A DNA stretch of 64,000 nt from Streptomyces sp. S4.7 (GTDB taxonomy: Bacteria; Actinomycetota; Actinomycetes; Streptomycetales; Streptomycetaceae). The notes under the pieces are model-generated. The model made no database searches. It had not been told where the DNA came from and was given only the letters and a program-made list of their open reading frames with translations. The stretch spans positions 4,030,001-4,094,000 of the forward strand of contig NZ_CP048397.1 of assembly GCF_010384365.1 (NCBI RefSeq), written 5' to 3'. Made by a program: the position numbers and the translations under genes. Positions within the stretch are counted from its first letter, which is position 1; each line of letters begins with the position of its first letter. Positions 29,100 through 63,709 of this stretch are shown one piece after another.

Positions 29100-30380
29100 T
29101 CAGGGCGCCCCCGCTTCCCGGGCCCGGCGGGAGGAGAAGTGGCGTGCGCTGGGTACGAGGGCGGCGGCGGCCGGGGCCGCGAAGCAGATCAGCGCGCAGA
29201 CGGTGAGTACGGCGCGGGGGCCGAAGGCGTCGATCGCCGGGGCGATGAGCGCCAGGCCGACCGGCGCGAGACCGTACGACAGCATGAAGTCGAGCGAGGA
29301 GACGCGGGCGAGTCTGTCGGGTGCCACCTCGCGCTGAGTGGCGGTGAACCAGGGGACGTTGAAGAGTTCGATGCCGACTCCGGCGACGGCGTAGGCGGCG
29401 ACGACGACCGCGGGGTGCACCGGGAAGAGAAGGCTCAGCGGCGCGAATCCGTAGGCGGCCAGCCCGGCGAGGGCGGCCCAGCCCTGGGAGGGCGGGCGCC
29501 AGCGGGCGATGAGCAGCGCGGCGGCGAGGGCTCCGGCGGTGTAGGCGGTGGTGGCCGCCGCGAGGACCACACCGGTGTCGTACCGGTCCCTGCTGACCAG
29601 GGGCAGCGCGACCCCGGTCGCGGAGTAGCCGGTGGCGATGACGGCGGTCAGCGCGGCGAGCGTGGCGATGAACCAGGGGTGCCTGCGCGCCTCACGTACC
29701 CCGTCCGCGAACTCCGCCAGGAACGACGGGCGTCGGGATGAAGGTACGGCGTCGGGCCCGCCGTCGGGCGCGTGGGTGCCGCGCCCGGGGGTGAGCGCGG
29801 CGACGAGCCAGAGTGCCCCGATGCCCAGGAGCAGTGCCCCGGTGCCGAGGGCGACCGCGAGCAGAGCGGTGAGGGCGGGACCCGCGAGGGTGCTGACCCG
29901 GACGGAGAGCGTCATGGCCGCGTTGGCCTGCTGCCTGCGTCCGTCGTCGACGACTTCCGCCGTGAGCGCCTGGAAGGCGGGCCGGCAGGCGCCCTGCCCG
30001 GCTCCGGCGAGCGCGGCGGCGAGCGCCATCAGGGGAAGCGAGCGCCCCAGTCCGGCGGCGAGGAGCGGTGCGGAGGCCGCGGCCGCGAGCCCTGACCACA
30101 GGACGACTCCGCGCCGTGAGTGCCGGTCCGCCAGCACCCCGCCCACGGGGACCGCCGCGAGGAATCCGAGGGTGCGGGCGGCCAGGAGCAGGCCGAGCGC
30201 GGCGGGTGACAGCGTCCGGTCGAGTACGGCGAGGCCGAGCACGAACGGCAGGGCCCAAGTGGCGAGCCCCGAGGCGGTGGCGCCCGTCCACAGCCGCAGG
30301 AACGCGGTGTCCCGCAGTACGGAACACGCGGGCGGTGGGGCGGACTTGGCGATTTCTGTCGTGCGGGGTGCGGTCGGCAC
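29100..30380 (-). CDS. MFS transporter, possible exporter of the neighbouring locus product
   Basis: 426 aa from the GTG at 30380, with AGGAG nine bases upstream. About 12 hydrophobic helices. The conserved A-motif loop is GGVLADRHSRRGVVLWSG, between helices 2 and 3. FTATQREVAPDRLARVSSLDFMLSYGLAPVG is typical of the enterobactin-exporter-like (EntS/MFS_3) group, which export siderophores. It is transcribed away from the seven-gene operon, with the Fur/Zur-like box in the shared 233-base region, so joint control is plausible. Export role is inference. Confidence 0.88.
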   Translation of the reverse strand: MPTAPRTTEIAKSAPPPACSVLRDTAFLRLWTGATASGLATWALPFVLGLAVLDRTLSPAALGLLLAARTLGFLAAVPVGGVLADRHSRRGVVLWSGLAAAASAPLLAAGLGRSLPLMALAAALAGAGQGACRPAFQALTAEVVDDGRRQQANAAMTLSVRVSTLAGPALTALLAVALGTGALLLGIGALWLVAALTPGRGTHAPDGGPDAVPSSRRPSFLAEFADGVREARRHPWFIATLAALTAVIATGYSATGVALPLVSRDRYDTGVVLAAATTAYTAGALAAALLIARWRPPSQGWAALAGLAAYGFAPLSLLFPVHPAVVVAAYAVAGVGIELFNVPWFTATQREVAPDRLARVSSLDFMLSYGLAPVGLALIAPAIDAFGPRAVLTVCALICFAAPAAAALVPSARHFSSRRAREAGAP

Positions 30381-30523
30381 GGTGTGACGCTCCTGACATC
30401 GGGGGCCGGCTGATACGGCTCCGCCACCGTCAAGTGCCCGTGGGGCGGGGCGTGGTGACGCACGGGACTGCGGCGGAGTCACGGAACGGCGTGGCCGCCC
30501 GCGGCTGCTCAAGGGTAGCAAGA

Positions 30524-30538
30524 TGAAAATGATTATCG
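30524..30538. promoter_or_regulatory. Fur/Zur-like 7-1-7 box in the divergent promoter region
   Basis: TGAAAATGATTATCG matches 13 of 15 positions of the Streptomyces Zur box as I recall it (TGAAAATGATTTTCA), and similarly the 7-1-7 Fur pattern. It is strikingly AT-rich against its surroundings and lies 76 bases before the methyltransferase start and 144 before the MFS start. Zur is more likely than Fur because iron control in Streptomyces is mainly through DmdR. Confidence 0.7.
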
Positions 30539-30613
30539 TTATAGTGCGGTCTGGCTCGCCTCTCCCTGCCAGGGGCACGGCCATATCTGCCCCCTCTCGC
30601 ACCGGAGGACCCG

Positions 30614-31351
30614 ATGGACCCGACAGCGACCGGACCCGCTCTGCTGGAACAGCTCCCACCGCCCCTCCCCGCGGCGCGGATCATCGCGCTCAACCAGCCG
30701 AGGACCGATCCGCACACCACCCGCGCCTACACCTGGGAGGGCTGGGACTTCGAGGCACCGCCGGGTGTCTTCCTGCCGGGCGCGACCAGCCGGATGATCC
30801 ACGAGCGGCTGCTCGACGGCCGGATCGAGGTACGCGGGCGCCGATACGGTGCCATGGGCGCCGGGTTGGGGGTCGAGGCCGTCGCCGCCGGAGTCCGCGG
30901 GGCCCGCGAGATCTACGCGATGGACATCCACGCCGAGAGCGTGGAGACCGCCGCCCGCCACTACCGGCGGCTCGTCGGCGCCCGCGAGGGCACCGACTTC
31001 GTCCCCGTCGTGGGCGACATGTTCGACGGCCTGGCGCCGGGTGTGCGGCTGGACGTCATCACGTTCAACCCGCCCGCGGTCAGCCAACGGGTCAGCGACG
31101 ACCCGGCCGTCGTGCGCAACGTCTGTGCGGGCGCGCCCCTCGTGGCGCGGTTCTTCACCCGGATCCGCGACCGGGACCTGCTCGCCGACGGCGGTGAGGT
31201 CTTCCTCGTCGTCTCCAACACCGCCGACCTGCGCACGATCGTGGGTGACGCCCTGGACCAGGGGTTCACCGCGGAGATCGACCATCTGCACGACTGGCAG
31301 GACGGCGTCCTGACCTTCCTGTTCCGGCTGACCCGGGGAGCCCGGTCATGA
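30614..31351 (+). CDS. SAM-dependent methyltransferase with NPP motif (metallophore locus gene 1)
   Basis: 245 aa; AGGA precedes the ATG. SAM motif I is YGAMGAGLGVEAVAAG (about 79-93), the acidic motif II is YAMDIHAESVETA (Asp104), and ITFNPPAVSQR (NPP at 152-154) is the post-II motif of HemK/PrmC-like amino-methyltransferases. The short N-terminal part (TRAYTWEGWDFEAPPGVFLPG) resembles the small-molecule branch rather than PrmC itself. SAM could donate methyl or an aminocarboxypropyl group; the sequence does not decide. First gene of the operon; its stop overlaps the next start (ATGA). Confidence 0.8.
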   Translation: MDPTATGPALLEQLPPPLPAARIIALNQPRTDPHTTRAYTWEGWDFEAPPGVFLPGATSRMIHERLLDGRIEVRGRRYGAMGAGLGVEAVAAGVRGAREIYAMDIHAESVETAARHYRRLVGAREGTDFVPVVGDMFDGLAPGVRLDVITFNPPAVSQRVSDDPAVVRNVCAGAPLVARFFTRIRDRDLLADGGEVFLVVSNTADLRTIVGDALDQGFTAEIDHLHDWQDGVLTFLFRLTRGARS

Positions 31352-32226
31352 CCGCGCCCACTTCCCCCGCGAGCCCCGCCGGTCCCTCCGACCTCGCGAG
31401 CCCCGCCGGCCCCCGCACCGTCGACGGCCTGATGTCCGGCGTCCTGGCGGGAGCACACGGCCCGGACCCGGCCGGTCTCACGGCCACCAGCGCGTTCTGG
31501 ATCCACCACGGCACACGCCTCGCCGGGGGCGACACCACCTACCTCAACCAGTACGTACTCATCAGGCTCGGCGGATCCTTCGGAGCCTGCGCCTTCGAAG
31601 CCGGTGAGATCGACCCCGCCGTCTGCCGGGAGGCGTCCGGGATGCCCCTGGACGTACTGCTGCGGGATGCTCCCCGGCCGATCCGGATCGCCGCCCTCGA
31701 CGCCTACCTCACCGAGGCCGAGCCGCATTCCCGGACGTCGCGCGCCGAGCCGGTGGCCCTGCCCGCCGGCACCCCGGAGATCCGGGCGAAGGCCCGCGAC
31801 GCGGCCGTGGCCGGTCTGCTGGACATCGCACCCGGTGCGAAGGTCGGGCTCATCGGCGTGGTCAATCCGCTGGTCGCCGCGATCCGCGAGCGCGGCGGCA
31901 GCCCGCTGCTCTGCGACTTCAATCTCCGCACGACCCAGTGGGGCGACCTCGTCAGCGACAGCGCGGAGACGGTGCTGGGCGAATCCGACGCCGTCATCGC
32001 CACCGGAATGACTCTCGGCAACAACTCCTTCGACACCGTCCTCGCCCGGTGCCGCGAACGCGCCGTGCCGCTGATCGTCTACGCCCAGACGGGCAGCGCG
32101 GTGGCACGGGCCTTCCTGGGCTCGGGCGTGACCGCCCTGTCCGCCGAGCCGTTCCCGTTCTCCCAGTTCAGCGCGGAGCCGACCACGCTCTACCGCTACC
32201 GCGAGCCCGCCGGGGGCGGGGCGTGA
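31348..32226 (+). CDS. DUF364/Rossmann-like protein (putative heavy-metal chelation family)
   Basis: 292 aa. After a disordered Ala/Pro/Ser leader, SAFWIHHGTRLAGGDTTYLNQYVLIRLGGSFGACAFEAGEI resembles the DUF4213 N-terminal part. The C-terminal half has a Rossmann-like core: KVGLIGVVNPLVAAIRERGGSPLLCDFNLRTTQWG, SDAVIATGMTLGNNSFDTVLARC and PLIVYAQTGSAVARAFLGSGV, as in DUF364 proteins described as putative heavy-metal chelation domains. The reaction is unknown. Overlaps both neighbours by four bases, so it is made together with them. Confidence 0.7.
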   Translation: MTAPTSPASPAGPSDLASPAGPRTVDGLMSGVLAGAHGPDPAGLTATSAFWIHHGTRLAGGDTTYLNQYVLIRLGGSFGACAFEAGEIDPAVCREASGMPLDVLLRDAPRPIRIAALDAYLTEAEPHSRTSRAEPVALPAGTPEIRAKARDAAVAGLLDIAPGAKVGLIGVVNPLVAAIRERGGSPLLCDFNLRTTQWGDLVSDSAETVLGESDAVIATGMTLGNNSFDTVLARCRERAVPLIVYAQTGSAVARAFLGSGVTALSAEPFPFSQFSAEPTTLYRYREPAGGGA

Positions 32227-33347
32227 CGGCCGGAGCGGGCGGCACCGGGCCGGGCACCCCGGGCAGGGCCGGTATGTCTCCCGAGCCCGCCGTCTCCGGT
32301 ACGGGGTACGCCAGTTGCCACCACGGCGAGATCCTGCAGGGCGTCTTCCTCGACGCCCGGGGCCGACGGTGCGCCGCCCTCGTCACCCTGCCGCTGACCG
32401 GCCTCGGCACCCGCGCCGACGCCGTACTGCGACCGGGCACCCCGCCAGGGAGCCACTCCGTCGACCCGCCCGACCGCACGAAGGCACTGCGCGCCGCGAC
32501 CCTCGCCCTGCGGGAATGCCGCGCCCGGCGCCCTCAAGTCCCTTTCGGCAAACTGGAGTTGCGGCTCGGCGGCGACGTTCCGCTGGGACTGGGCATGGGG
32601 TCCTCCAGCAGCGATGTCATCGCCGCGGTGCGCGCGGTCGCCGACGCATGCGGGCTGCGGCTGCCGTCGCGGACCGTCGCCCGAATCGCGGTACGGGCCG
32701 AGCAGGCGTCCGATCCTCTGATGCTCGACGGCCGGCCACTGCTGTTCGCACAGCGGGAGGGCCGGGTCCTCGAAGTCCTCGGCGACGCGCTGCCGCCCGC
32801 CGTGGTGGTCGGCTGCACCCTGGGCGAGGGGCGGCCCGTGGACACCCTGTCCCTCCCGGCCCCGGCCTGCGGCGACGACGACGTGCGCGCCTACGAGCGG
32901 CTGCGCTCACTGCTGCGGCGGGCGGTGGCCGAAGGGGATGTCCGGCTGCTCGGGAAAGTCAGTACCGAAAGCGCCCGGCGCGCCCAACGGGTACTGCGCC
33001 ACCGGGAGTTCGACCGCCTGACGCGCGTGGCCGAGCGGACGGGGGCGGTGGGCGTACAGATCGCTCACAGCGGCAGCGTGGCCGGGCTGCTCTTCGACCC
33101 CGCGGCCACTGACCTGGGGGCGCGCCTCCGGCGCTGCGCGGGCGCCCTGGACCGCGAAGGCATCCCCGTGACCCGGACCTTCACGACCCGCCCGTCCGCC
33201 GAACACCTCACGCCCTCCACCCGCACCACGCCCCTCACGCCGTTCACGACCAGCGAGGAGTCCCGCCATGGACGAGCACATCGCCGACGCGATCGGACGA
33301 CCCGACCTGATACGCCTGGACGAAGGGCTCATCTGTCTGCGCTTTGA
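32223..33347 (+). CDS. GHMP kinase, PduX-like (amino-acid kinase candidate)
   Basis: 374 aa from the GTG overlapping the previous stop (an ATG at 32274 is the alternative). CHHGEILQG (residues 33-40) matches the GELxQG signature of PduX L-threonine kinases; the GHMP ATP loop is VPLGLGMGSSSSDVIAAVRA (119-138), and the C-terminal motif is QIAHSGSVAGLLFDP. PduX makes O-phospho-L-threonine. Here the neighbouring PLP lyase suggests that an O-phospho amino acid is an intermediate with phosphate as the leaving group. The last 80 bases run over the next gene in another frame, so the C-terminal tail is dispensable or the true stop is affected by an indel. Confidence 0.8.
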   Translation: MTAGAGGTGPGTPGRAGMSPEPAVSGTGYASCHHGEILQGVFLDARGRRCAALVTLPLTGLGTRADAVLRPGTPPGSHSVDPPDRTKALRAATLALRECRARRPQVPFGKLELRLGGDVPLGLGMGSSSSDVIAAVRAVADACGLRLPSRTVARIAVRAEQASDPLMLDGRPLLFAQREGRVLEVLGDALPPAVVVGCTLGEGRPVDTLSLPAPACGDDDVRAYERLRSLLRRAVAEGDVRLLGKVSTESARRAQRVLRHREFDRLTRVAERTGAVGVQIAHSGSVAGLLFDPAATDLGARLRRCAGALDREGIPVTRTFTTRPSAEHLTPSTRTTPLTPFTTSEESRHGRAHRRRDRTTRPDTPGRRAHLSAL

Positions 33348-34296
33348 GTCCATGAAGGCGGTCTCCGCCACGGCGGCCGTCCGGCACCTGCTCGACACCG
33401 GCGCCGTACGGCCCGGCGACACCCTGCTGGACAGCTCCAGCGGCATCTACGCGTACGCCCTCGCCCTGGCCTGCCATCGCTACGGCATGCGCTGCCACAT
33501 CATCGGCTCCACGACCGTGGACCACACGCTGCGTACGCAACTCGCCGTGCTCGGGGCGGAGTTCGAGCAGATGGACCCCAGCGACGACCTGAAGCTCGAC
33601 CAGAAGCGCCGGGTCGCGCGCATCCACGAGATCCTCGCCGCGCACCCCGAGTACCACTGGATGCGCCAGTACCACGACGACATCCACTACCTCGGCTACC
33701 GGGCCGTAGCCGACCGTATCCACGAGGAGACCGGTACCGGCCCGCTCACCGTGGTCGGCGGAGTCGGATCCGGCGCCTCGACCGGGGCACTCGCCCGCCG
33801 TCTGCGGGAACACTCACCCGGCGTCGGCCTCATCGGAGTTCAGCCGTTCGGCAGCGTCACCTTCGGCAGCGAGCACGTGCCCGACCCCGACATCATCATC
33901 GCCGGGATCGGCAGCTCCATCCCCTTCGCCAATGTCGACCACACCCTCTACGACACCCTGCACTGGCTGGGCTTCGGCACCGCCCTCGCCGGCAGCGTCG
34001 ACCTGCTGCGCAGGTACGCCGTCTTCGCCGGACTCTCCACCGGAGCGGCCTATCTCACCGCACGGTGGGAACGCAACCGCGACCCCGGCCGGACCTTCCT
34101 CTTCATCGCCGCCGACACCGGCCACCGCTACACCGACTCGGTCTTCGCCCGCCACCGCACGGCGCAGCCGGCCGACTCCCTCGCCCCGCGCACCGTGGCC
34201 ACGCTCGACGATCTCGCCCACCCCTGGTCCCGGATGAACTGGAACCGCGCACCCGCGCCCGCGCCCGTGGCCACGCGTGAACGGCGGACCCGTTGA
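33268..34296 (+). CDS. Cysteine-synthase-like PLP enzyme (beta-replacement candidate)
   Basis: 342 aa; ATG with AGGAG eight bases upstream. Fold-type II features: the Schiff-base Lys is Lys30 in RFESMKAVSATAAV, the loop usually SSGNTG is altered to LDSSSGIYAYALA (about 54-66), and the phosphate loop is GGVGSGASTGALARRL (164-179). Charged QKRRVARIHEILAAHPEYHWMRQYHDD resembles SbnA/2,3-diaminopropionate synthase-type enzymes. With the kinase upstream, it could replace the phosphate of O-phospho-Ser or O-phospho-Thr with an amine or thiol. This is inference; no substrate is known. Confidence 0.82.
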   Translation: MDEHIADAIGRPDLIRLDEGLICLRFESMKAVSATAAVRHLLDTGAVRPGDTLLDSSSGIYAYALALACHRYGMRCHIIGSTTVDHTLRTQLAVLGAEFEQMDPSDDLKLDQKRRVARIHEILAAHPEYHWMRQYHDDIHYLGYRAVADRIHEETGTGPLTVVGGVGSGASTGALARRLREHSPGVGLIGVQPFGSVTFGSEHVPDPDIIIAGIGSSIPFANVDHTLYDTLHWLGFGTALAGSVDLLRRYAVFAGLSTGAAYLTARWERNRDPGRTFLFIAADTGHRYTDSVFARHRTAQPADSLAPRTVATLDDLAHPWSRMNWNRAPAPAPVATRERRTR

Positions 34297-35447
34297 CGCC
34301 TCGTCACTCCACGCCGACTCCCCTGCCCCCAGGGGTGGATGCCGCCGAGTCGGTCACCTCCCGGACCCCGGCAGCCGCGCCCCCGGCCGGCACCGTCGCG
34401 GGGCGGCTCCACCGTCCCGCCGCCGTCGCGGCCATGTGCGCGGCCCTCGCCGTACTGCTGTCCGGCTCCGTACTACTCGCCATCAGCCTGGGACCGGCCC
34501 CGGTCCCGCCCGCCGACACCGCCCGCTTCCTGTGGGCGGCGCTGGCCGGAGGCCGCGTCGAGGCGGCCGACATCACGACGTACCAGATCATCTGGGAGAT
34601 CCGCACCCCGCGCGTGCTGCTCGCGGCCCTGGTGGGGGCCGGGCTGAGCGCGGTCGGCGTCGCCGTCCAGGCGATGGTCCGCAACGCGCTCGCGGACCCG
34701 TTCGTCCTCGGCGTCTCCTCCGGAGCCTCCGTCGGCGCCGTCGGTGTCACGGTCACCGGAGGCCTCGCGGGGCTCGGTCTCCACGCGGTGTCGGCCGGGG
34801 CGTTCGCGGGCGCGCTGTTCGCGTCCTTCCTGGTGTACGCCGCATCCTCGCGCGGCGGCGCGCTGTCCCCGCTTCGGCTCGTACTGACCGGCGTCTGCGT
34901 CTCGTTCGGACTCCAGGCCGTGATGAGCGTGATCATCTACCTCGCGCCGAGCGGCGAGGCGACCAGCACCGTCCTGTACTGGACGATGGGCAGCTTCGGC
35001 GCGGCGAGCTGGGCCGCCCTGCCGGTCGTGACCGCGGCCGTCCTGCTCGGCACAGCGGTGCTGCACCGGCAGAGCCGTTCCCTGGACGTCCTGGCACTCG
35101 GCGACGAGACCGCGGTCAGCCTCGGCATCAGCCCCGACCGGCACCGGCGGTTCCTGCTCGTCCTCGCCTCCCTGCTGACCGGAGTCATGGTCGCTGTCAG
35201 CGGCGCGATCAGCTTTGTCGGGCTGGTCATGCCGCACCTCGTACGCCTGGTGGCCGGCGCCGGACACGCCCGGGTCCTGGCCCTCGCGCCCCTGGCCGGG
35301 GCGGTGTTCATGGTGTGGGCCGACCTGATCGCCCGCACTCTGGCCGCCCCGCGCGAACTGCCGCTCGGCGTCATCACCGCGCTCGTCGGAGTACCGGTCT
35401 TCATCACCCTGATGCGCCGCAAGAGCTACCTCTTCGGGGGCCGCTGA
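34293..35447 (+). CDS. FecCD/BtuC-type ABC permease
   Basis: 384 aa from TTG overlapping the previous stop (TTGA). Around nine or ten membrane helices. The family patterns RTPRVLLAALVGAGLSAVGVAVQAMVRNALADPFVLGVSSGASVGA and SGAISFVGLVMPHLVRLVAGAGHARVLALAPLAGAVFMVWADLIARTL are both present. A single permease gene implies a homodimeric transporter, as with BtuC. It imports a metal complex or cofactor with the ATPase and binding protein that follow. Confidence 0.94.
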   Translation: MTPRHSTPTPLPPGVDAAESVTSRTPAAAPPAGTVAGRLHRPAAVAAMCAALAVLLSGSVLLAISLGPAPVPPADTARFLWAALAGGRVEAADITTYQIIWEIRTPRVLLAALVGAGLSAVGVAVQAMVRNALADPFVLGVSSGASVGAVGVTVTGGLAGLGLHAVSAGAFAGALFASFLVYAASSRGGALSPLRLVLTGVCVSFGLQAVMSVIIYLAPSGEATSTVLYWTMGSFGAASWAALPVVTAAVLLGTAVLHRQSRSLDVLALGDETAVSLGISPDRHRRFLLVLASLLTGVMVAVSGAISFVGLVMPHLVRLVAGAGHARVLALAPLAGAVFMVWADLIARTLAAPRELPLGVITALVGVPVFITLMRRKSYLFGGR

Positions 35448-35448
35448 C

Positions 35449-36222
35449 ATGGAACTCTCCCTCGACGGCGTGACGTTCGCGCTCGACGGCAGGACCCTGG
35501 TACGGGACCTGTCCCTGCACGTCGCCACCGGCCGGGTGATCGGACTCGTCGGCCCCAACGGCAGCGGCAAGTCCACCGCCCTGCGGTGCGTCTACCGCGC
35601 GCTGAGACCCACCGGCGGAACGGTGCTCGTCGACCGGCGCGACCTCGACTCACTGACGCTGCGCGAGAGCGCGCGGGCCGTCGCCGCCATGACCCAGGAC
35701 AGCTCCGTGGACCTCGACTTCACCGTCGAGGAGGTCGTCGCCCTCGGCCGGGCCCCGCATCTGCGCGGCAACCAGAACCTGGGTGAACGGGAACGGGACC
35801 TGGTGACCGCCGCCATGGCCCGCCTCGGCATCGGCCATCTCGCCCACCGCGGAATCCTGACCCTCTCCGGCGGCGAACGCCAGCGCGTCCTGGTGGCCCG
35901 CGCCCTGGTCCAGGAGCCGCAGATCCTGGTCCTGGACGAGCCCACCAACCATCTCGACATCCGTCACCAGCTCGAACTGCTCTCCCTGCTGCGCGGATCG
36001 GGCCTCACCGTCCTGGTCGTCCTGCACGACCTCAACCTCGCGGCAGCCGCCTGCGACCGGCTCGCGGTCCTCTCCCAGAGCCGCCTCGTCGCCTCGGGCA
36101 CCCCCGAGGAGGTCCTCACCGCCGAGCTCCTGCGGGAGGTGTTCGGCGTCCGGGCCGACGTCGTACGCCACCCGCACACCGGCGATCCCCAACTGCTGTA
36201 CGTACTCCCGACCCACCCGTGA
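35449..36222 (+). CDS. FecE/BtuD-type ABC ATPase
   Basis: 257 aa, starting two bases after the permease stop. Walker A is GPNGSGKST (35-43), Q-loop in MTQDSSV, signature LTLSGGERQ (137-145), Walker B LVLDEPTNHLD (160-170), and the switch His in VVLHDLNLAA. All catalytic elements are present, and the sequence is of the iron-chelate/B12 importer group. Confidence 0.95.
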   Translation: MELSLDGVTFALDGRTLVRDLSLHVATGRVIGLVGPNGSGKSTALRCVYRALRPTGGTVLVDRRDLDSLTLRESARAVAAMTQDSSVDLDFTVEEVVALGRAPHLRGNQNLGERERDLVTAAMARLGIGHLAHRGILTLSGGERQRVLVARALVQEPQILVLDEPTNHLDIRHQLELLSLLRGSGLTVLVVLHDLNLAAAACDRLAVLSQSRLVASGTPEEVLTAELLREVFGVRADVVRHPHTGDPQLLYVLPTHP

Positions 36223-36244
36223 ACAGCACCCGTGAACAGCACCC

Positions 36245-37264
36245 ATGAACAGAGAGAGACCCATGTCCCCACGTCCCGCGGTACGCCGCCCCGCCCTGCT
36301 CGCCTCCGCGCTGACCGTCGCCGTCCTGCTGAGCGGCTGCGGCGCCGACATCGAGACCGACACCGAGGCAGACGCCGAGGTCAAGGTGCGCCGGTGCGGC
36401 GAGTCCGTCCCGTACACCGTCCCGAAGAAGGCCGTGGCCTACGAAGGCGGCAGCGCCGACAAGCTGTTCAGCCTCGGCCTGACCGACCACGTGCTCGGCT
36501 ACGTCATGCCCCCGGCCAACCCGCCGGTGAGCGAATCCCCCTGGGCCGCCGAGTACGCCAAGGTCAAGATGCTCAGCGACGACCTCCTCAACAAGGAACT
36601 CGTCGTCTCCCACAAGTCCGACCTCGTCGTCGCCGGCTGGAACTCGGGCTTCAGCGACCAGCGCGGCATCACACCCGAGATTCTCGACAGACTCGGCATC
36701 CAGAGCTTCATGCACACCGAGAGCTGCTACAACTACCCCGGATTCCCCGAGAAGACGGCCCCCTTCGACGGCCTCTACACCGACCTCGAACGGCTCGGCC
36801 GGATCTTCCGCGTGGAGGACAGGGCGACCGAGGTCGTCGACGCCCTCAAAGAGCGTGTGGACAAGGTCGGTTCGGCCGCGCCGAAGACCGACCCCCTGCC
36901 GGTGTTCCTCTACGACTCCGGCACGGACCAGCCGTTCACGGCCGGCAGCCAGGTCCCGCCCAACGACATCATCAAGACCGCCGGAGCCCGGAACATCTTC
37001 GACGGCCTCGACGAGCGCTGGACCCAGGTGAGCTGGGAAGCCGTCACGCGGGCGGCGCCCGAGGTGATCATCATCCTCGACTACGGCGACCAGCCCGCGA
37101 AGGAGAAGATCGACTTCCTGAGGAAATCCCCCCGCACGAGCGAACTTCCGGCCGTGCGGAAGAACCAGTTCTTCGTCCTCGACTACAACGAGGGCATCAG
37201 CGGCCCGCGGAACATCGACGGCCTGGAGAAGTTCGCGTCCTACCTCACCACGCTGAAGCGGTGA
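36245..37264 (+). CDS. Metal-chelate/cofactor-binding lipoprotein (class III SBP)
   Basis: 339 aa; a second ATG at 36263 has the better AGAGAGA ribosome site and may be the true start. Lipobox LLSGC gives a lipidated Cys32. The two lobes (KKAVAYEGGSADKLFSLGL ... SDLVVAGWNSGFSD; VFLYDSGTDQPFTAGSQVPPNDIIKTAGARNIF ... VSWEAVTRAAPEVIIILDYG) follow the TroA/FepB class. The pattern resembles the actinobacterial cassette labelled F420-0 transporter, but no cof genes accompany it and the upstream enzymes point to a dedicated small molecule. Ten-base GAACAGCACCC repeats precede it. Confidence 0.9.
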   Translation: MNRERPMSPRPAVRRPALLASALTVAVLLSGCGADIETDTEADAEVKVRRCGESVPYTVPKKAVAYEGGSADKLFSLGLTDHVLGYVMPPANPPVSESPWAAEYAKVKMLSDDLLNKELVVSHKSDLVVAGWNSGFSDQRGITPEILDRLGIQSFMHTESCYNYPGFPEKTAPFDGLYTDLERLGRIFRVEDRATEVVDALKERVDKVGSAAPKTDPLPVFLYDSGTDQPFTAGSQVPPNDIIKTAGARNIFDGLDERWTQVSWEAVTRAAPEVIIILDYGDQPAKEKIDFLRKSPRTSELPAVRKNQFFVLDYNEGISGPRNIDGLEKFASYLTTLKR

Positions 37265-37418
37265 AGCGGTGAAGCGCTGAAGTGCGGAATCCTGGCATCG
37301 CCGACGCCGCGCCGGTCCGACGGAGTGTCGGCGTACGGGTACGGGCGGCGGCTGACAGCATCGGTCGGGCACCTCGTCGCCACCCCCGCGCGGGGACGCG
37401 ACCGCGAGAGGCAGACCC

Positions 37419-38966
37419 ATGACGCCACGCCCCCACTGGCTGTTCGGGGACCAACTCGGTCCGCGTTTCGTCGACCCGCGTCACGGCGGCCCCGACGCCA
37501 GGGCACCGCTGATCATGATCGAGGCGCGCTCGGTGCTGCGCCGGCGCCGCTTCCACCGGGCCAAAGCCCATCTGGTGCTCTCGGCGATGCGGCACCGCGC
37601 CGCCGAGCTCGGCGACCGGGTCACGTACGTCCGGGCCGAGACGTACGCCGAGGGCCTGGAGACGGCCCTCGGCCACCCGTCCTCCCGCCCGGCCACGCAC
37701 GACGGGGGCGCGGGCGGCCGGCTGACGGTCTGCCACCCCACCTCGCGCCGGGCACTGGAGTTCGTCCGGGCGCGCGAGGGCGTCGAGGTCCTGCCGGCGA
37801 AGGGCTTCCTGGTCAGCCACGACGACTTCGCGGGCTGGGCCGGCCGCGGCGACGGACAAGGTCTGCGGCTGGAAGGCTTCTACCGCTGGGTTCGCGGGCA
37901 GCACGACCTGCTCATGGACGGGGACGAGCCCGTCGGCGGGCGGTGGAACCTCGACCGCGACAACCGCGAACCCCCGCCGCGCGGACAGGAGACGCTCGAC
38001 GTCCCTCGCCCCTGGCAGCCGCGTGAGGACGCGATCGACGAAGAGGTCCGCCACGACCTCGACCGCTGGGAACGCGACGGCTCCGTCTCCTTCGTCGGCC
38101 GTGACGGCCCCCGACACTTTCCCGCCACCCGGCGCGAAGCGCTGTCCGCGCTGCGGCACTTCATCACCCACCGGCTGCCGGACTTCGGCAGCCACGAGGA
38201 CGCCATGCTCGCGGCCGACCCCGTGATGAGCCACAGTCTGCTGTCCGCGCCCCTGAACCTCGGACTCCTCGACCCGGCCGAATGCGTGGAACGCGCCGAG
38301 CGGGCCCACCGCGCCGGCGACGCGCCCCTCAACAGCGTCGAGGGTTTCGTCCGGCAGATCGCCGGCTGGCGCGAGTACGTCTGGCATCTCTACTGGCACT
38401 TCGGCGAGGACTACCGCCACCGCAACGCGCTGCGCCACAAGGCCCCGCTGCCCGACTGGTTCCTCGACCTGGACGCCGACGCCGTCACCGCCAACTGCCT
38501 GTCCTCCGTGCTCGCCCAGGTGCGGGACACCGGCTGGACCCACCACATCCCGCGCCTGATGGTGCTCGGCAGCCGCGCCCTCCAGGACGGCTGGGACCCG
38601 GCGGCCGTCACCGACTGGTTCCACCGCTGCTTCGTCGACGGCTACGACTGGGTGATGCTCCCCAACGTCGTCGGCATGTCCCAGTACGCCGACGGCGGCC
38701 TCATGACCACCAAGCCCTACACCTCCGGCGGCGCCTACATCCACCGGATGAGCGATCTCTGCGGCCCCTGCGCCTACCGCCCCACCGACCGCACAGGCGA
38801 CCGCGCCTGCCCTTACACGGCCGGCTACTGGGCCTTCCTGCACCGCCACCGCGACCGCCTGGCGGCCAACCACCGCATGGCCCGCGCGGTCAAGGGCCTC
38901 GACCGGCTCAAGGACCTCCCGGAACTCCTCGACACGACCGCGCGACGCGCGGACGCGGCACCCTGA
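37419..38966 (+). CDS. FeS-type bacterial photolyase/cryptochrome (PhrB-like)
   Basis: 515 aa. N-terminal photolyase-related alpha/beta domain (HWLFGDQLGPRFVDP), then a helical FAD domain with VEGFVRQIAGWREYVWHLYW and ANCLSSVLAQVRDTGWTHHIPRLMVLG. Cys360, Cys448, Cys451 and Cys464 have spacings 88, 3 and 13, identical to the four cluster ligands I recall for Agrobacterium PhrB (350, 438, 441, 454), so a [4Fe-4S] cluster is expected. The family repairs (6-4) photoproducts. It has its own ribosome site and is probably outside the metallophore operon. Confidence 0.93.
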   Translation: MTPRPHWLFGDQLGPRFVDPRHGGPDARAPLIMIEARSVLRRRRFHRAKAHLVLSAMRHRAAELGDRVTYVRAETYAEGLETALGHPSSRPATHDGGAGGRLTVCHPTSRRALEFVRAREGVEVLPAKGFLVSHDDFAGWAGRGDGQGLRLEGFYRWVRGQHDLLMDGDEPVGGRWNLDRDNREPPPRGQETLDVPRPWQPREDAIDEEVRHDLDRWERDGSVSFVGRDGPRHFPATRREALSALRHFITHRLPDFGSHEDAMLAADPVMSHSLLSAPLNLGLLDPAECVERAERAHRAGDAPLNSVEGFVRQIAGWREYVWHLYWHFGEDYRHRNALRHKAPLPDWFLDLDADAVTANCLSSVLAQVRDTGWTHHIPRLMVLGSRALQDGWDPAAVTDWFHRCFVDGYDWVMLPNVVGMSQYADGGLMTTKPYTSGGAYIHRMSDLCGPCAYRPTDRTGDRACPYTAGYWAFLHRHRDRLAANHRMARAVKGLDRLKDLPELLDTTARRADAAP

Positions 38967-55882: not shown

Positions 55883-56452
55883 TAGTGCCCACACGTGATG
55901 TGGAAGCCAGAGCATGTGATCGACAGCCTCTGTACGTCATCGTTGCCGTCAACTGGGGCATGGAGTAGACGATGGCGTGACTCGATCCGGCGGGCCGTTG
56001 ATCAGCTGATCGAAGCTCGCTGAACGGTTAGCGCTGCCCCACGGAACGGGCTAAACCGCCCATGTCACCACTGGGTGAACGAACCCGAAGCAGGTCGCTG
56101 CGAGGCCGGACCATCATGACCCCGACAGCAGCCCCTCCTCGTTACGCCTACGTGCGCCTCCAAGAGCCACGCTGCCTCTCGTGCAGATGGTGACTCTACG
56201 TGCCTAATTAGCCACTGGAAGTGTGTGGCTGGGGGCGTAACGCCAGCGTCAAGGTTGCCAACATGAAGGCAATTCAAGTGGATTATGCATCCAAAAAGGA
56301 CACTCCCGGGTCGGAAGATTTAAAAACTGATCAACCCAAAATCGGGCGAAGCGATTTCAGGTCGACCTCTTTGGTGCGCCTCGCCTTTGGGTGCAGACCT
56401 GCGCTGGATGTATGCGCAGCCCCAACGTGGGGGAATGATTCGAGGAGTTTTC
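55883..56452. other. Long non-coding stretch ahead of the bacteriocin gene
   Basis: 570 bases of visibly lower GC. AT-rich patches near 56275-56345 could hold promoters; CCCCAACGTGGGG near 56420 is a small palindrome 20 bases before the ribosome site. No gene recognised. Confidence 0.5.
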
Positions 56453-56899
56453 GTGAAGATCTCTGGCAGATCCGTAGTTTTCACCCTTGCGAGTGCGGTC
56501 CTGGCTGTCGGCGCTCTCGCCGCCCCGGCCGCCGCGGAGGATTCTCCGATCAGCAGGATCGTTGTGCACACCGCCGGGGACGGCTCTCAGCCGCCTGCGG
56601 AACTTGGCAACCCCAAGGAGTGGGGTGTGGTCACGCTCGCACTTGACGACTTGGCTGGCGAATTTACGCCCAAGACCATCATCGAAGTCGGTGGCGGAAC
56701 TTGGAGCTACGGCTGGGAAGCCAGGAACGATCAAAAGTACTGCTACTCGAACTACTACCACAGGACCGTGGACCACGGCTCAACTGTGAAGATCGCCAAC
56801 GGCACGGTAAAGGCCGTGGCGTTCGCCGGCCAGACTTCCAATGCCAACCGTTCGGCTGGCTTTGCCTACACGTGTGAGACCTACTACGCTAAGTACTAG
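56453..56899 (+). CDS. Lactococcin-972-like bacteriocin precursor
   Basis: 148 aa; GTG with GAGGAG six bases upstream. Sec signal peptide (RSVVFTLASAVLAVGALAAPAAAE), then the lactococcin 972 domain: IIEVGGGTWSYGWEARNDQKYCYSNYYHRTVDHGSTVKIANGTVKAVAFAGQTSNANRSAGFAYTCETYY. In the characterised Lactococcus peptide this type blocks septum formation by binding lipid II. The pro-region of about 55 residues is longer than usual. Base composition is lower in GC than the chromosome, suggesting acquisition. Confidence 0.85.
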   Translation: MKISGRSVVFTLASAVLAVGALAAPAAAEDSPISRIVVHTAGDGSQPPAELGNPKEWGVVTLALDDLAGEFTPKTIIEVGGGTWSYGWEARNDQKYCYSNYYHRTVDHGSTVKIANGTVKAVAFAGQTSNANRSAGFAYTCETYYAKY

Positions 56900-56967
56900 T
56901 CTTGATCTTTCCGGCGCTTTGGGAGTGTGTTATAGGTGCGGCGTCAGGGTGGCCGGGGGGAAAGCTA

Positions 56968-57702
56968 GTGCGATCGGGGCTCTGCGACTGTGTACGTAGA
57001 GCCCCGATTGGCGAAATGCTTGGCCTTGGTCATGGACCACAGAAGCGGGATATTTTAATCGTGTACTTTCTGCGTATCCGTGTCATGCCTATCGTGATTG
57101 TCTTTACAGTCGGCGTGGTTTTGGGTGTGATGGGCCCGCTCATGGGCAAATTTGACAACCCGGTCTGCCATGCTGCTGCGCTCGTCTTCTCTGGTGGGTG
57201 GGCGTGGGCCTGCTTCGCCTTTCTGGTGGGTTTTTCGCGCCGGTCCAAGATTGAGTCGGCGCTGCTGGCTTCCTCGGCATTGGCTGTAGCCGTGGTCGTG
57301 TACTACGTTTTCAAGTCTATGTTTCCGGCTTCCCCTATCGGTCTGGTCGTCTCCTCTGGAGCGGGAGACGGGCTTGGTTCTAAGATCCTTGTCTGGGGAA
57401 TAGCAGCCTTCGTCTTTGGGGCCCCTGTGGGGCTATTTGGGAACATTGCGCGAACGCGTGGTATCGGAGGACTCCCGTTTCGACTACTCATCCCGTTGAC
57501 TGCATTTATCGAGACCTCTGCGCGGTTGGATGCGGAGGCTCCATCGCAAGGTGATGTTGTCGAGTTCACCTGGAACGCGATTCGAATTGCAGCGGGTGCC
57601 GCTTTCTTGGCTGTACTGCTGCACGAATTGATAACTTGGCGTGCTGAGCGCGTGGCGCCAGGAGAAGAACGAGCGGATAACCAGGCTGTCATAGGAAATT
57701 AA
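56968..57702 (+). CDS. Multi-pass membrane protein, candidate immunity partner
   Basis: 244 aa from the GTG at 56968, whose GGGGGGAAAG site is better than that of the TTG at 56902. Five or six membrane helices (VMPIVIVFTVGVVLGVMGPLMG; ALVFSGGWAWACFAFLVGF; SALLASSALAVAVVVYYVF; LVWGIAAFVFGAPVGLFG; AAGAAFLAVLLHELITW). Lactococcin-972 loci usually have a large membrane protein plus an ABC ATPase; this one is smaller and no ATPase follows. It loosely resembles DUF6518-type membrane proteins. Immunity is inference from position. Confidence 0.6.
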   Translation: MRSGLCDCVRRAPIGEMLGLGHGPQKRDILIVYFLRIRVMPIVIVFTVGVVLGVMGPLMGKFDNPVCHAAALVFSGGWAWACFAFLVGFSRRSKIESALLASSALAVAVVVYYVFKSMFPASPIGLVVSSGAGDGLGSKILVWGIAAFVFGAPVGLFGNIARTRGIGGLPFRLLIPLTAFIETSARLDAEAPSQGDVVEFTWNAIRIAAGAAFLAVLLHELITWRAERVAPGEERADNQAVIGN

Positions 57703-57818
57703 GTATCTTCTCCCTGCGGCTCGGCTCATAGGTATAGCCGTGATCGGTTTAGCTTTGCCACGGGCAAGCCCGATATTGCGATAGAGTGCAGGTGTGCAGT
57801 GTGATCGGAAATTCGAAA

Positions 57819-57849
57819 CCCCACTCGGACGGCGTCCGAGTGGGGCGTT
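57819..57849 (+). terminator. Rho-independent terminator
   Basis: CCCCACTCGGAC-ggc-GTCCGAGTGGGG followed by CGTTTTGC. It closes the bacteriocin/membrane-protein unit. Confidence 0.9.
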
Positions 57850-57871
57850 TTGCTATCTGCGCATGCGTCTA

Positions 57872-59291
57872 GTGTGATGCGCCAGAAATGATGAGACTAA
57901 GTCTGTTTCAGGTTTCAGTGGCCGGCGGGTTGATTTTGGCGAGGTAGCCGGCGAGGGAGTTGAGGATCTCGTCGGCGGTCTTGGTCCAGGTGAAGGGCCT
58001 GGGATTCTCGTTCCATCCGTCGATCCAGGCCCTGATGTCTTGCTCCAGGGCCTTCAGGGAGGTGTGCACCCCGCGGCGGATGAGCTTGTCCGTCAGCAGG
58101 CCGAACCACCGCTCGACCTGGTTCATCCAGGAGGAGCCGGTGGGGGTGAAGTGGACGTGGAAACGGGGGTGCTTGCCCAGCCAGGTCTTGATCTCGGCGG
58201 TGTTGTGGGTGGCGTAGTTGTCGCAGACCAGGTGCACGTCGAGGCCGGCCGGCACGGCTTTGTCGATCGTGACCAGGAACTTCTTGAACTCGATCGCCCG
58301 ATGGCGGCGGTGCAGTTGCGATATGACGCTGCCGTCGGCGATGTTGAAGGCCGCGAACAGGCTGGTGATGCCGTGCCGGTAGTAGTCGTGGGTACGCCGC
58401 TCGGGCATGCCCGGCATCATCGGCAGTACAGGCTGCGAGCGGTCCAGCGCCTGGATCTGGCTCTTCTCATCCACGCACAGCACCACCGCCCTCTCGGGCG
58501 GATGGTGGTAGAGGCCGACGACATCGACAACCTTGGCGACGAACTGCGGGTCGGTGGAGAGCTTGAAGGCGTCCTGGAGATGGGGCTTGAGGTCGAACTT
58601 CTTCCAGATCCGCCCGACGGTGGACCGCGACAGCCCGGAGTGCTTCGCCATCGAAGCCCGCGACCAGTGGGTGTCTTTGCCCGGGGTGGACTCCAGCGTC
58701 GCCGTGAGCACGTCCTCGACCTGGTCCAGCAGGATCGAGGGCGGCCTGCCGGGACGCGGCTCATCGGTCAGCCCGTCCAGCCGCAACCGGATGAACCTCG
58801 ACCGCCAGCGATTCACCGTTCCTTGCGATACACCGAGTTCGGCGGCGATCTCCTTGTTCGTCCCGCCGTTCGCGCACCGCAGCACGATCCTCGCCCGCAG
58901 CGCCAGGAACTGCGCGGTCTTCGCCCGCCGCGCCCAGCGCGTCAGCTCGGCACGCTCGGCCTCGGAGAGCACCAGTTCCGGCTTGCGCCGGCCCGGCCGC
59001 GGCTTGTCCACCAGCCCCGCCACCCGCCGGGCCACGAACCGCGAGCGCCACTTGCGCACCGTCTCCGCAGACACCCCGAAGTCCGCTGCTACACCGGTAT
59101 TTGACGCTCCCTCCGCACACGCCAGAATGATCCGGGCCCGCTCCGCCGCACGGGCCGACACGGCACCACCCGCCCAACGCGCCAGCTCTGCCCGCTCCTC
59201 GGCAGACAGCACGACTTCCACAGCACGAGGACCCCGAGACGCCATAAAAACAGCCTACAGACTTAGTCTCATCATTTCTGGCGCATCACAG
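57872..59291 (-). mobile_element. IS630-family element flanked by TA
   Basis: Perfect 34-bp terminal inverted repeats starting TGTGATGCGCCAGAAATGAT (57873 onwards and 59290 backwards). TA precedes (57870-57871) and follows (59292-59293), the expected IS630 target duplication. It separates the bacteriocin genes from the AICE genes and cuts the 5' end of the TraSA-like gene. Confidence 0.92.
57908..59245 (-). CDS. IS630 transposase with duplicated N-terminal helix-turn-helix
   Basis: 445 aa, about 80 more than usual. Residues 25-80 (SARAAERARIILACAEGASNTGVAADFGVSAETVRKWRSRFVARRVAGLVDKPRPGRRK) and 108-165 (FLALRARIVLRCANGGTNKEIAAELGVSQGTVNRWRSRFIRLRLDGLTDEPRPGRPP) are the same HTH module twice. 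The DDE core follows: VLCVDEKSQIQALDR, VHLVCDNYATHNTAEIK and TGSSWMNQVERWFG. All catalytic residues are present. Confidence 0.93.
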   Translation of the reverse strand: MASRGPRAVEVVLSAEERAELARWAGGAVSARAAERARIILACAEGASNTGVAADFGVSAETVRKWRSRFVARRVAGLVDKPRPGRRKPELVLSEAERAELTRWARRAKTAQFLALRARIVLRCANGGTNKEIAAELGVSQGTVNRWRSRFIRLRLDGLTDEPRPGRPPSILLDQVEDVLTATLESTPGKDTHWSRASMAKHSGLSRSTVGRIWKKFDLKPHLQDAFKLSTDPQFVAKVVDVVGLYHHPPERAVVLCVDEKSQIQALDRSQPVLPMMPGMPERRTHDYYRHGITSLFAAFNIADGSVISQLHRRHRAIEFKKFLVTIDKAVPAGLDVHLVCDNYATHNTAEIKTWLGKHPRFHVHFTPTGSSWMNQVERWFGLLTDKLIRRGVHTSLKALEQDIRAWIDGWNENPRPFTWTKTADEILNSLAGYLAKINPPATET

Positions 59292-59572: not shown

Positions 59573-60483
59573 TCAGCTGGTCAGGGAGGGTTGACGGGGT
59601 TTCAGGTTCGCTCTTTTGGTCGTTGCCTGCTCGGCGTAGTGCTTCTCCTCGAACTCGATCGGGCTGAGGTAGCCGAGCCGCTTCTGGATGCGCCGGCTGT
59701 TATAGAAGCCGTCGAAGTACTCGAAGAGTGCGAGGTTGGCTTCGGCCCTGGTGGTGAAGACGCGGCCGCGGACGCACTCGGTCTTCGTCAGCATCCACAG
59801 ATTCTCCGCGAGGGCGTTGTCGTAACTGTCGCCGGCCGAGCCCATCGACGCGTCAATTCCTGCCCTCATCAGGCGTGTTGTCAGCTTGATGGACGTATAT
59901 TGGCAGCCGTGGTCGGCGTGGTGGATGAGCTTGCCGGGCTCGACCTCGCGGGAGGCGGGCGCGTACTCCAGGCTGGACAGGACCAGGTCGGCGTCCGCGC
60001 GGGCGGAGGTTTCCCAGGCCACGGCCCGGCGGGAGAATGCGTCGCGGATCGCGGACAGCCACAGCGGTCCCTCGGCGGTCGGGATCATCGTCAGATCGGT
60101 GACCCACAGACGGTTCGGCCCCTGGGCGGTGAAGTCCCGGCTGACGAGGTCCGGGCGAGCGCGGCTTGGGATCCCGGCGCGTGAAACCGCCCGGCGCGGG
60201 CTGAGACCCGCCAGATCGGCCTCGCGCATCAACCGCTCGACGCGTTTGCGGCCTACGTGACGCCCTCGCGTTTCAGTATGGCGTGCACCCGTGGCGACCC
60301 GTAGATGCCACCGACCGGTATGGATCGCCTTGATCTTCTTTGAGAGTCGACGTCGCGGCGCCGCCGCTCGCAGGGCTCTTTCTCAGCGCGGCGCCAGCGG
60401 TAGTAGGTGGACGAGGCGATGGAAAGCTCCCGGAGTACGCACTCGACTCCCAGGTGTGGATGCTCGTCGAGGAGCGCGGTCAC
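59573..60483 (-). pseudogene. IS3-type transposase OrfB, copy 1, several frameshifts
   Basis: The same protein as in copy 2 but split: the N-terminus (MTALLDEHPHLGVECVLREL, to 60253) and the DDE part (NRLWVTDLTMIPTAEGPL, HHADHGCQYTS, YDNALAENLWMLTKTE) are in different frames. Comparison with 62792-63709 shows several one- to few-base losses between about 60140 and 60345. Confidence 0.88.
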
Positions 60484-62791: not shown

Positions 62792-63709
62792 TCAGCTGGT
62801 CAGGGAGGGTTGACGGGGTTTCAGGTTCGCTCTTTTGGTCGTTGCCTGCTCGGCGTAGTGCTTCTCCTCGAACTCGATCGGGCTGAGGTAGCCGAGCCGC
62901 CTCTGGATGCGCCGGCTGTTATAGAAGCCGTCGAAGTACTCGAAGAGTGCGAGGTTGGCTTCGGCCCTGGTGGTGAAGACGCGGCCGCGGACGCACTCGG
63001 TCTTCGTCAGCATCCACAGATTCTCCGCGAGGGCGTTGTCGTAACTGTCGCCGACCGAGCCCATCGACGCGTCAATTCCTGCCCTCATCAAGCGTGTTGT
63101 CAGCTTGATGGACGTATATTGGCAGCCGTGGTCGGCGTGGTGGATGAGCTTGCCGGGCTCGACCTCGCGGGAGGCGAGCGCGTACTCCAGGCTGGACAGG
63201 ACCAGGTCGGCGTCCGCGCGGGCGGAGGTTTCCCAGGCCACGACCCGGCGGGAGAATGCGTCGCGGATCGCGGACAGCCACAGCGGTCCCTCGGCGGTCG
63301 GGATCATCGTCAGATCGGTGACCCACAGACGGTTCGGCCCCTGGGCGGTGAAGTCCCGGTTGACGAGGTCCGGGGCGAGCGCGGCCTTGGGATCCCGGCG
63401 CGTGAAACCGCTCCGGCGCGGGCTGAGACCCGCCAGATCGGCCTCGCGCATCAACCGCTCGACGCGTTTGCGGCCTACGTGGACGCCCTCGCGTTTCAGT
63501 ATGGCGTGCACCCGTGGCGACCCGTAGATGCCACCGGACCCGGTATGGATCGCCTTGATCTTCTCGGTGAGCTCGACGTCGCGGCGCCGCCGCTCGCAGG
63601 GCTCTTTCTCAGCGCGGCGCCAGCGGTAGTAGGTGGAGGAGGCGATGGAAAGCTCCCGGAGTACGCACTCGACTCCCAGGTGTGGATGCTCGTCGAGGAG
63701 CGCGGTCAC
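62792..63709 (-). CDS. IS3-type transposase OrfB, copy 2, intact
   Basis: 305 aa in one frame: HTGSGGIYGSPRVHAILKREGVHVGRKRVERLMREADLAG, NRDFTAQGPNRLWVTDLTMIP (Asp), LIHHADHGCQYTSIKLT (Asp) and SYDNALAENLWMLTKTEC (Glu). It overlaps orfA by four bases. This is the reference against which copy 1 can be seen to have decayed. Confidence 0.94.
   Translation of the reverse strand: MTALLDEHPHLGVECVLRELSIASSTYYRWRRAEKEPCERRRRDVELTEKIKAIHTGSGGIYGSPRVHAILKREGVHVGRKRVERLMREADLAGLSPRRSGFTRRDPKAALAPDLVNRDFTAQGPNRLWVTDLTMIPTAEGPLWLSAIRDAFSRRVVAWETSARADADLVLSSLEYALASREVEPGKLIHHADHGCQYTSIKLTTRLMRAGIDASMGSVGDSYDNALAENLWMLTKTECVRGRVFTTRAEANLALFEYFDGFYNSRRIQRRLGYLSPIEFEEKHYAEQATTKRANLKPRQPSLTS

Follow-up and report, generated by a model that had tools for sequence, protein, structure and literature searches.

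An amino-acid kinase that feeds a fold-type II pyridoxal phosphate (PLP) enzyme within a metal-regulated metallophore operon is described for staphyloferrin B of Staphylococcus aureus, where the two proteins are SbnI and SbnA (PMC12414870, PMC9598555). A Zur-controlled metallophore of an actinomycete is described for Amycolatopsis japonicum, whose aes genes are responsible for the zincophore [S,S]-ethylenediaminedisuccinate (EDDS). EDDS is an amino-polycarboxylate made by PLP-enzyme logic; to our knowledge a GHMP kinase and a DUF364 protein are not part of aes. A third related system is the coelibactin cluster of S. coelicolor, a Zur-repressed putative zincophore cluster (PMC5472717) whose product is described as a putative nonribosomal peptide. 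Here we describe an operon of Streptomyces sp. S4.7 in which a GHMP kinase and a fold-type II PLP enzyme are combined with a DUF364 protein behind a Zur-box match. The operon lies in a stretch of 64,000 nucleotides (C1:4030001-4094000 of the 7.94-Mb genome; henceforth the window). Its gene set and Zur box are conserved, and a single residue of the PLP enzyme varies with the presence of the kinase.

The features are, in window coordinates:

29100-30380, minus strand: divergent exporter gene of the major facilitator superfamily (MFS; PF07690 MFS_1, 115.1 bits; start approximate)
30521-30541, no strand: match to the 21-bp Zur motif with 3 mismatches; its 15-bp core TGAAAATGATTATCG (30524-30538) has 1 mismatch to the Zur 15-mer
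30614-31351, plus strand: methyltransferase-like protein (MTS), an optional member of the unit (PF05175, 23.3 bits at a cut-off of 23, a weak match)
31348-32226, plus strand: DUF364 protein of a putative heavy-metal chelation family (PF04016, 52.8 bits, cut-off 23)
32223-33347, plus strand: GHMP kinase, proposed hydroxy-amino-acid (threonine) kinase (PF00288, PF08544)
33268-34296, plus strand: fold-type II PLP enzyme, proposed to catalyse beta-replacement on an O-phospho-amino acid (PF00291, 109.1 bits, above cut-off)
34293-35447, plus strand: permease of a FecCD-type ATP-binding cassette (ABC) importer (PF01032, 293.6 bits)
35449-36222, plus strand: ATPase of the ABC importer (PF00005, 116.5 bits)
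36245-37264, plus strand: substrate-binding protein of the importer (PF01497, 90.3 bits)

The preliminary description of this DNA had placed the kinase gene directly before the PLP enzyme gene with an overlap of 80 bases, and this was confirmed. The kinase reading frame begins with GTG at 32223, where GTGA forms the overlap with the stop of the DUF364 gene, and ends at 33347; that of the PLP enzyme runs from the ATG at 33268 to a stop at 34296. As to the suggestion that the overlap fits joint production, by our own gene calls the same 80-nucleotide overlap is common (39 of the 59 loci having both genes), yet it is not required, as spacing in the other 20 ranges from an overlap of 152 to a gap of 39 nucleotides. 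The setting had been described incompletely, since the Zur box, the DUF364 partner, the exporter and the importer were missed. Staphyloferrin B is under Fur control, while here we find a Zur box, and a Pfam scan of the eight proteins encoded at 30614-38966 detected neither SbnB nor an IucA/IucC synthetase. SbnI, moreover, is ParB-like, as opposed to the GHMP kinase of our operon.

A scan of genome contigs yielded 65 related loci from Streptomyces, Actinopolyspora, Nocardiopsis, Umezawaea, Actinosynnema and one record labelled Streptosporangium. The PLP enzyme gene was present in all 65, the DUF364 gene in 63 (L024 and L064, both at contig ends, being those without), the kinase gene in 61 and the methyltransferase-like gene in 14. 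Four loci (L063, L078, L079 and L080) had DUF364 and PLP enzyme genes but no kinase, and in none of the three searchable genomes behind these four zincophore-type loci was a kinase homologue found at E <= 0.001. A divergent MFS gene of the same cluster preceded the operon in 55 of the 65 loci, as it does in the window, and the binding protein of the importer belonged to two different clusters (42 and 17 loci). MFS gene and FecCD-type importer recurred next to DUF364, kinase and PLP enzyme. The conserved unit is a divergent MFS gene, an optional methyltransferase-like gene, DUF364, kinase, PLP enzyme and a FecCD-type ABC importer. On a Tsukamurella plasmid (L239) the order was permease, ATPase, binding protein, DUF364, MFS, kinase (by profile) and PLP enzyme. 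A relative of the PLP enzyme (E <= 1e-60) turned up in 5 of 396 genomes drawn across the phylum, and in the genus the count was 127 of 392; cluster types were mixed. A photolyase-related gene at 37419-38966 was left out of the unit because it was seen in only one of the 65 loci (L021). The single match to a known RNA near the operon, a snoRNA family, was under its gathering score.

For S. coelicolor the Zur motif is given as tGaNNatSatNNtCa, with the 21-bp actinobacterial form taaTGaNAANNNTTNtCANta (PMC5472717). With up to 3 mismatches the 21-bp form matched five places in the genome of strain S4.7: the 5' end of a ZnuA gene, overlapping the start picked by the gene caller; a site directly before an ABC-3 (ZnuB-like) permease gene; a site (G000:C1:6772736) that precedes a gene for a cation-efflux protein with a zinc-transporter dimerisation domain, an arrangement also seen at zitB of S. 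coelicolor; the promoter of our operon; and one site without evident zinc link. As a control we reversed the pattern, which matched 1 and 2 places on the whole genome. The 15-mer with 1 mismatch is uninformative alone (121 forward matches against 16 in the control). Divergent promoters were scored in 55 loci and in the window; 52 of these 56 carried the 21-mer with at most 3 mismatches, a threshold reached by 2 of 2766 control stretches of the same length elsewhere in the loci and by none of 280 single-base shuffles. At the level of sequence the evidence for Zur control is strong, and we are highly confident that the operon is a Zur-controlled metallophore operon. The Zur box, the zinc genes sharing its motif and the transporter setting therefore make it a candidate NRPS-independent zincophore operon (NRPS, nonribosomal peptide synthetase).

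The kinase belongs to the GHMP superfamily by Pfam (GHMP_kinases_N 47.6 bits, GHMP_kinases_C 24.4 bits, both over cut-off). Its motif reads HHGEILQG, and the earlier label 'GELxQG-type' is fair because several relatives read GELLQG. By description it can be likened to PduX, the L-threonine kinase of the cobalamin pathway, which has a GHMP fold and a GELxQG-like motif. The NCBIfam equivalogs of the homoserine kinase ThrB were missed by a wide distance (28.9 of 194 and 25.4 of 168.25 bits). An attempt to identify the kinase by its PDB relatives gave weak or partial GHMP matches. The pairing with the PLP enzyme extends to distant contexts. In four loci (L133, L134, L135 and L141) an argininosuccinate-lyase-like gene is clustered with related kinase and PLP enzyme genes, with ATP-grasp ligases and NRPS-like genes around them, and in L133 and L134 the kinase and PLP enzyme genes are non-adjacent; NRPS identity was judged by eye from translated text in L133-L135, L139 and L140 and is annotated in L241. 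Annotated neighbourhoods in Azospirillum, on a Streptomyces plasmid and in Sulfuriferula unite kinase, PLP enzyme, ATP-grasp and argH genes; no argH was found within the stretches fetched around the kinase-PLP pairs of Mesorhizobium and Bosea. We consider it quite probable that the kinase feeds the PLP enzyme.

Further contexts of the relatives were noted. An annotated threonine synthase adjoins the kinase-PLP pair in Mesorhizobium pMLb (L236) and in Bosea (L244 and L252), and a transketolase and an acyl-homoserine-lactone synthase lie near the kinase in L236 and in Paracoccus (L240). On plasmid pSmeRU11a of Sinorhizobium meliloti (L238) a kinase relative without PLP partner adjoins genes for a nucleotidyltransferase and a CDP-alcohol phosphatidyltransferase; therefore not every kinase relative need act on an amino acid. 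The NRPS-like region L129 (G399:C1:3396001-3412000) holds a kinase relative, a lyase-like reading frame and a PLP enzyme relative broken over several frames; the main locus of the same genome (L085) is likewise broken. In several Streptomyces clusters (L130, L131, L181, L194, L232, L234 and similar) the PLP enzyme is accompanied by an ATP-grasp ligase and by MFS-like and methyltransferase-like genes; some of these clusters have the kinase and others lack it, and they perhaps make small peptides of an unusual amino acid.

The presence of the kinase is mirrored by residue 168 of the PLP enzyme, which sits in the glycine-rich loop after Val166-Gly167. In a first set of 79 enzymes all 72 with a kinase had Ser and all 7 without had Thr; two loci whose kinases run into contig ends (L024 and L064) were counted as kinase-bearing, and L085 was excluded for its broken frames. 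The set was then enlarged from 392 newly drawn genomes of the genus, with 89 further contexts (29 returned by the search and 60 fetched). In the resulting 168 distinct sequences, some of which may come from the same species, all 130 enzymes that have a kinase nearby carried Ser168, including ten with the kinase on the opposite strand, and all 38 without one carried Thr168. Absence of the kinase was judged within the fetched stretches, which measured no more than 21 kb in the first set, roughly 3-4 kb for the 29 loci and 5.4-7 kb for the 60. A whole-genome search behind kinase-free enzymes (n=29, E <= 1e-8) found no kinase in 22 genomes and a kinase elsewhere in 7. Column 168 alone separated the 168 sequences perfectly, the next best column reaching a balanced accuracy of 0.89.

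In a quick tree of 75 rows, built with column 168 left out, both traits changed 8 times. The best tree contained 8 independent pairs, 5 of them on well-supported branches, and 5 of 5 agreed; disagreeing pairs were impossible because both traits coincide in every row of the tree. An earlier careful tree of 46 rows showed 4 changes of each trait and 4 pairs, 2 on well-supported branches. The switch was seen within DUF364 (zincophore-type) loci and within ATP-grasp loci. Among 16 plasmid-borne enzymes of several classes 13 followed the rule: kinase-bearing loci had 9 Ser and 1 Thr, kinase-free loci 4 Thr and 2 Ser (Fisher p 0.036), in a set hand-picked as 12 of 40 listed rows plus 4 loci from a kinase search and including the Tsukamurella locus, itself an actinobacterial zincophore-type locus.

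The genome of strain S4.7 also encodes a paralogue of the PLP enzyme (58% identical; G000:C1:4018069-4019079, L005:8021-9097) with Thr168, no kinase and a methyltransferase-like reading frame beside it. In the genome G1082 (L194), whose enzyme is 98.6% identical to the paralogue, ATP-grasp and MFS-like genes come next. In strain S4.7, unlike G1082, no gene was called in the following 850 bases, which looks like a deletion.

In the alignment SbnA has Thr at the position equivalent to 168. Because SbnA uses O-phosphoserine, Ser168 is not needed for a phosphate leaving group. Serine is threonine minus one methyl; a kinase product one methyl larger than the alternative donor would therefore explain the switch. 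Primary metabolism does not normally supply phospho-threonine but does supply a serine-derived donor. Our reading is that O-phospho-threonine is the kinase product and that Ser168 would leave space for its methyl, and for threonine as kinase substrate our estimate leans modestly to the positive side.

The chemical steps, the metal, the product and the direction of transport we infer as follows. Zinc starvation would switch on the operon through Zur, and a small metallophore would be made independently of NRPS. The kinase would phosphorylate an amino acid, most probably L-threonine, on its side-chain hydroxyl. The PLP enzyme would then swap the phosphate at the beta-carbon for a nucleophile; the best candidate is an amine supplied by a second amino acid, the role that glutamate plays for SbnA. 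The resulting amino-polycarboxylate would resemble EDDS or aspergillomarasmine and contain a 2,3-diaminobutyrate core, and the DUF364 protein, and in some species the methyltransferase-like protein, may add a further step. The MFS protein would export it, and permease, ATPase and binding protein would re-import the metal complex. In relatives without kinase Thr168 would mark a serine-derived donor from primary metabolism. For the whole chain of Zur-controlled operon, kinase, PLP enzyme and threonine-derived chelator we hold belief and doubt in equal measure. In the literature that we surveyed, neither this operon nor a synthesis of diaminobutyrate that depends on a kinase was described, though papers outside that selection may do so.

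The preliminary description had also proposed a diamino acid such as 2,3-diaminobutyrate as a possible building block, an idea that is supported in part. The lyase, ATP-grasp and NRPS contexts of relatives are those expected of a diamino-acid route, and the covariation of residue 168 fits a donor derived from threonine. In lyase-bearing relatives an SbnA-like condensation with aspartate could be followed by a lyase that releases fumarate and leaves a diamino acid. For the friulimicin-type dab genes the functions 'synthesis of cysteine' and 'cleavage of argininosuccinate' are given (PMC11117518). Judged by description, the kinase, PLP enzyme and lyase sets of the relatives look like dabA, dabB and dabC, which differ in serving an NRPS building block. 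We take the dab genes to make 2,3-diaminobutyrate via the free diamino acid, with dabC as the kinase, and the reading of argH as a diamino-acid-releasing lyase presumes this. For our operon the free form seems less likely: among the eight proteins of 30614-38966 the Pfam scan found none of the argininosuccinate-lyase type, and because of this a condensed, uncleaved amino-polycarboxylate, or a form of it modified by the DUF364 protein, is the likelier product.

Another possibility, which we regard as unlikely but worth weighing, is that the kinase makes phosphoserine like SbnI, and that kinase-less species take O-phosphoserine from serine synthesis. It has the precedent of SbnI and SbnA (PMC12414870, PMC9598555), and Arg132 and Tyr152 of SbnA are named as selecting phosphoserine, with Ser185 as a further O-phosphoserine residue (PMC12414870). 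In our alignment the catalytic Lys47, Arg132, Gln151 and Tyr152 of SbnA (PDB 5d84) correspond to Lys30, Arg115, Gln134 and Tyr135, all kept in 20 of 20 diverse members compared; retention of Arg115 and Tyr135 would suit phosphoserine. That the kinase could be lost in a few species also fits, as the loss would be easiest if the kinase product were a common metabolite. Yet the switching of residue 168 with the kinase would go unexplained, as SbnA itself has Thr, and primary metabolism already makes O-phosphoserine.

Activation by phosphate followed by beta-replacement, as originally suggested, is plausible chemistry given the recurrence of the pair in 61 of 65 loci and distant contexts and the retention of the equivalents of SbnA Arg132 and Tyr152. 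The nucleophile might be a thiol or another non-amine, giving a thioether or other amino acid as metallophore, and the enzyme does share fold and sequence with cysteine and cystathionine synthases. We consider this improbable, as the SbnA profile TIGR03945, the best NCBIfam match (129.8 bits, far under its equivalog cut-off of 349.95), fits better than CysKM (74.4 bits) and the lyase-like partners in distant contexts suit an aspartate-type amine donor. A reaction other than beta-replacement, e.g. that of a lyase, might be read from the substrate loop, whose unusual SSSGIYA had been pointed out before and is real: the enzyme has DSSSGIYA where M. tuberculosis cysteine synthase has EPTSGNTG, and D55 to A62 are invariant across 28 aligned sequences including the window enzyme and its paralogue. 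SGN is SGI in window-type enzymes, SGT in six members of NRPS context, and SGL, SGV or SGT in a few window-type relatives. Conservation of the four active-site residues in the 20 diverse members nevertheless makes such a reaction very improbable, as does the predicted fold, which resembles O-acetylserine sulfhydrylase (OASS), CysM and SbnA (Z 25.4 to OASS and 23.6 to SbnA 5d84, root-mean-square deviation 4.2 over 288 aligned residues) in a model with a mean predicted confidence (pLDDT) of 79.7 and values under 50 at residues 135-137, 197-222 and 285-287. Service to iron or another metal instead of zinc is hardly to be expected even though FecCD-type importers are mostly named for siderophores and cobalamin, since the DmdR1/IdeR iron box had 6-10 mismatches across the 56 scored promoters, where the Zur motif fits, and zinc genes of the same genome carry the Zur motif.

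Several observations weigh against a threonine-based, Zur-controlled pathway. The sign test on well-supported branches gave p 0.0625, and 29 of 72 inner branches of the quick tree were unresolved. Among the plasmid-borne enzymes Mesorhizobium L236 combines a kinase with Thr, and Ser occurs in Bradyrhizobium L245 and Sulfitobacter L253, where no kinase was found. The kinase scored under the cut-off of all seven NCBIfam families matched, and its Pfam and NCBIfam matches included no PduX model, nor its PDB matches a PduX structure. In the PLP enzyme Ser185 of SbnA is replaced by Gly167 and the Asn of SGN by Ile. Four of the 56 promoters fit the Zur 21-mer poorly (4-5 mismatches), and 10 of the 65 loci, in which no divergent MFS gene was called, were not scored. 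Finally, we know of no reaction for DUF364.

The assignment of the third enzyme to the DUF364 family is borne out by its fold; the model (pLDDT 88.2) best matched the DUF364 structures 3l5o (nearest in the PDB, E 1.1e-9) and 3npg. From fold and context the structure paper proposed an enzyme of flavin, pterin or siderophore synthesis (PMC2954201). Its place in a three-enzyme set behind a Zur box gives this proposal a concrete candidate pathway, not a reaction.

Elsewhere in the window two reading frames, with the same start, at 60253-60483 and 62792-63709 resemble insertion-sequence transposases by eye, and the G+C content is lower (0.576) at 56001-58000.

Our tentative suggestion, which we hold with more doubt than confidence, is that DUF364 protein, GHMP kinase and PLP enzyme represent a widespread three-enzyme class of zincophore biosynthesis, with a threonine-derived chelator of the 2,3-diaminobutyrate type, a Ser/Thr168 that reads out the donor and a biosynthetic role of DUF364. 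If true, the best-studied genus of antibiotic producers would gain a zincophore route free of NRPS, and the unexplained DUF364 family would gain its first biosynthetic context. A one-residue rule would then tell threonine-based from serine-based pathways of this kind by sequence.

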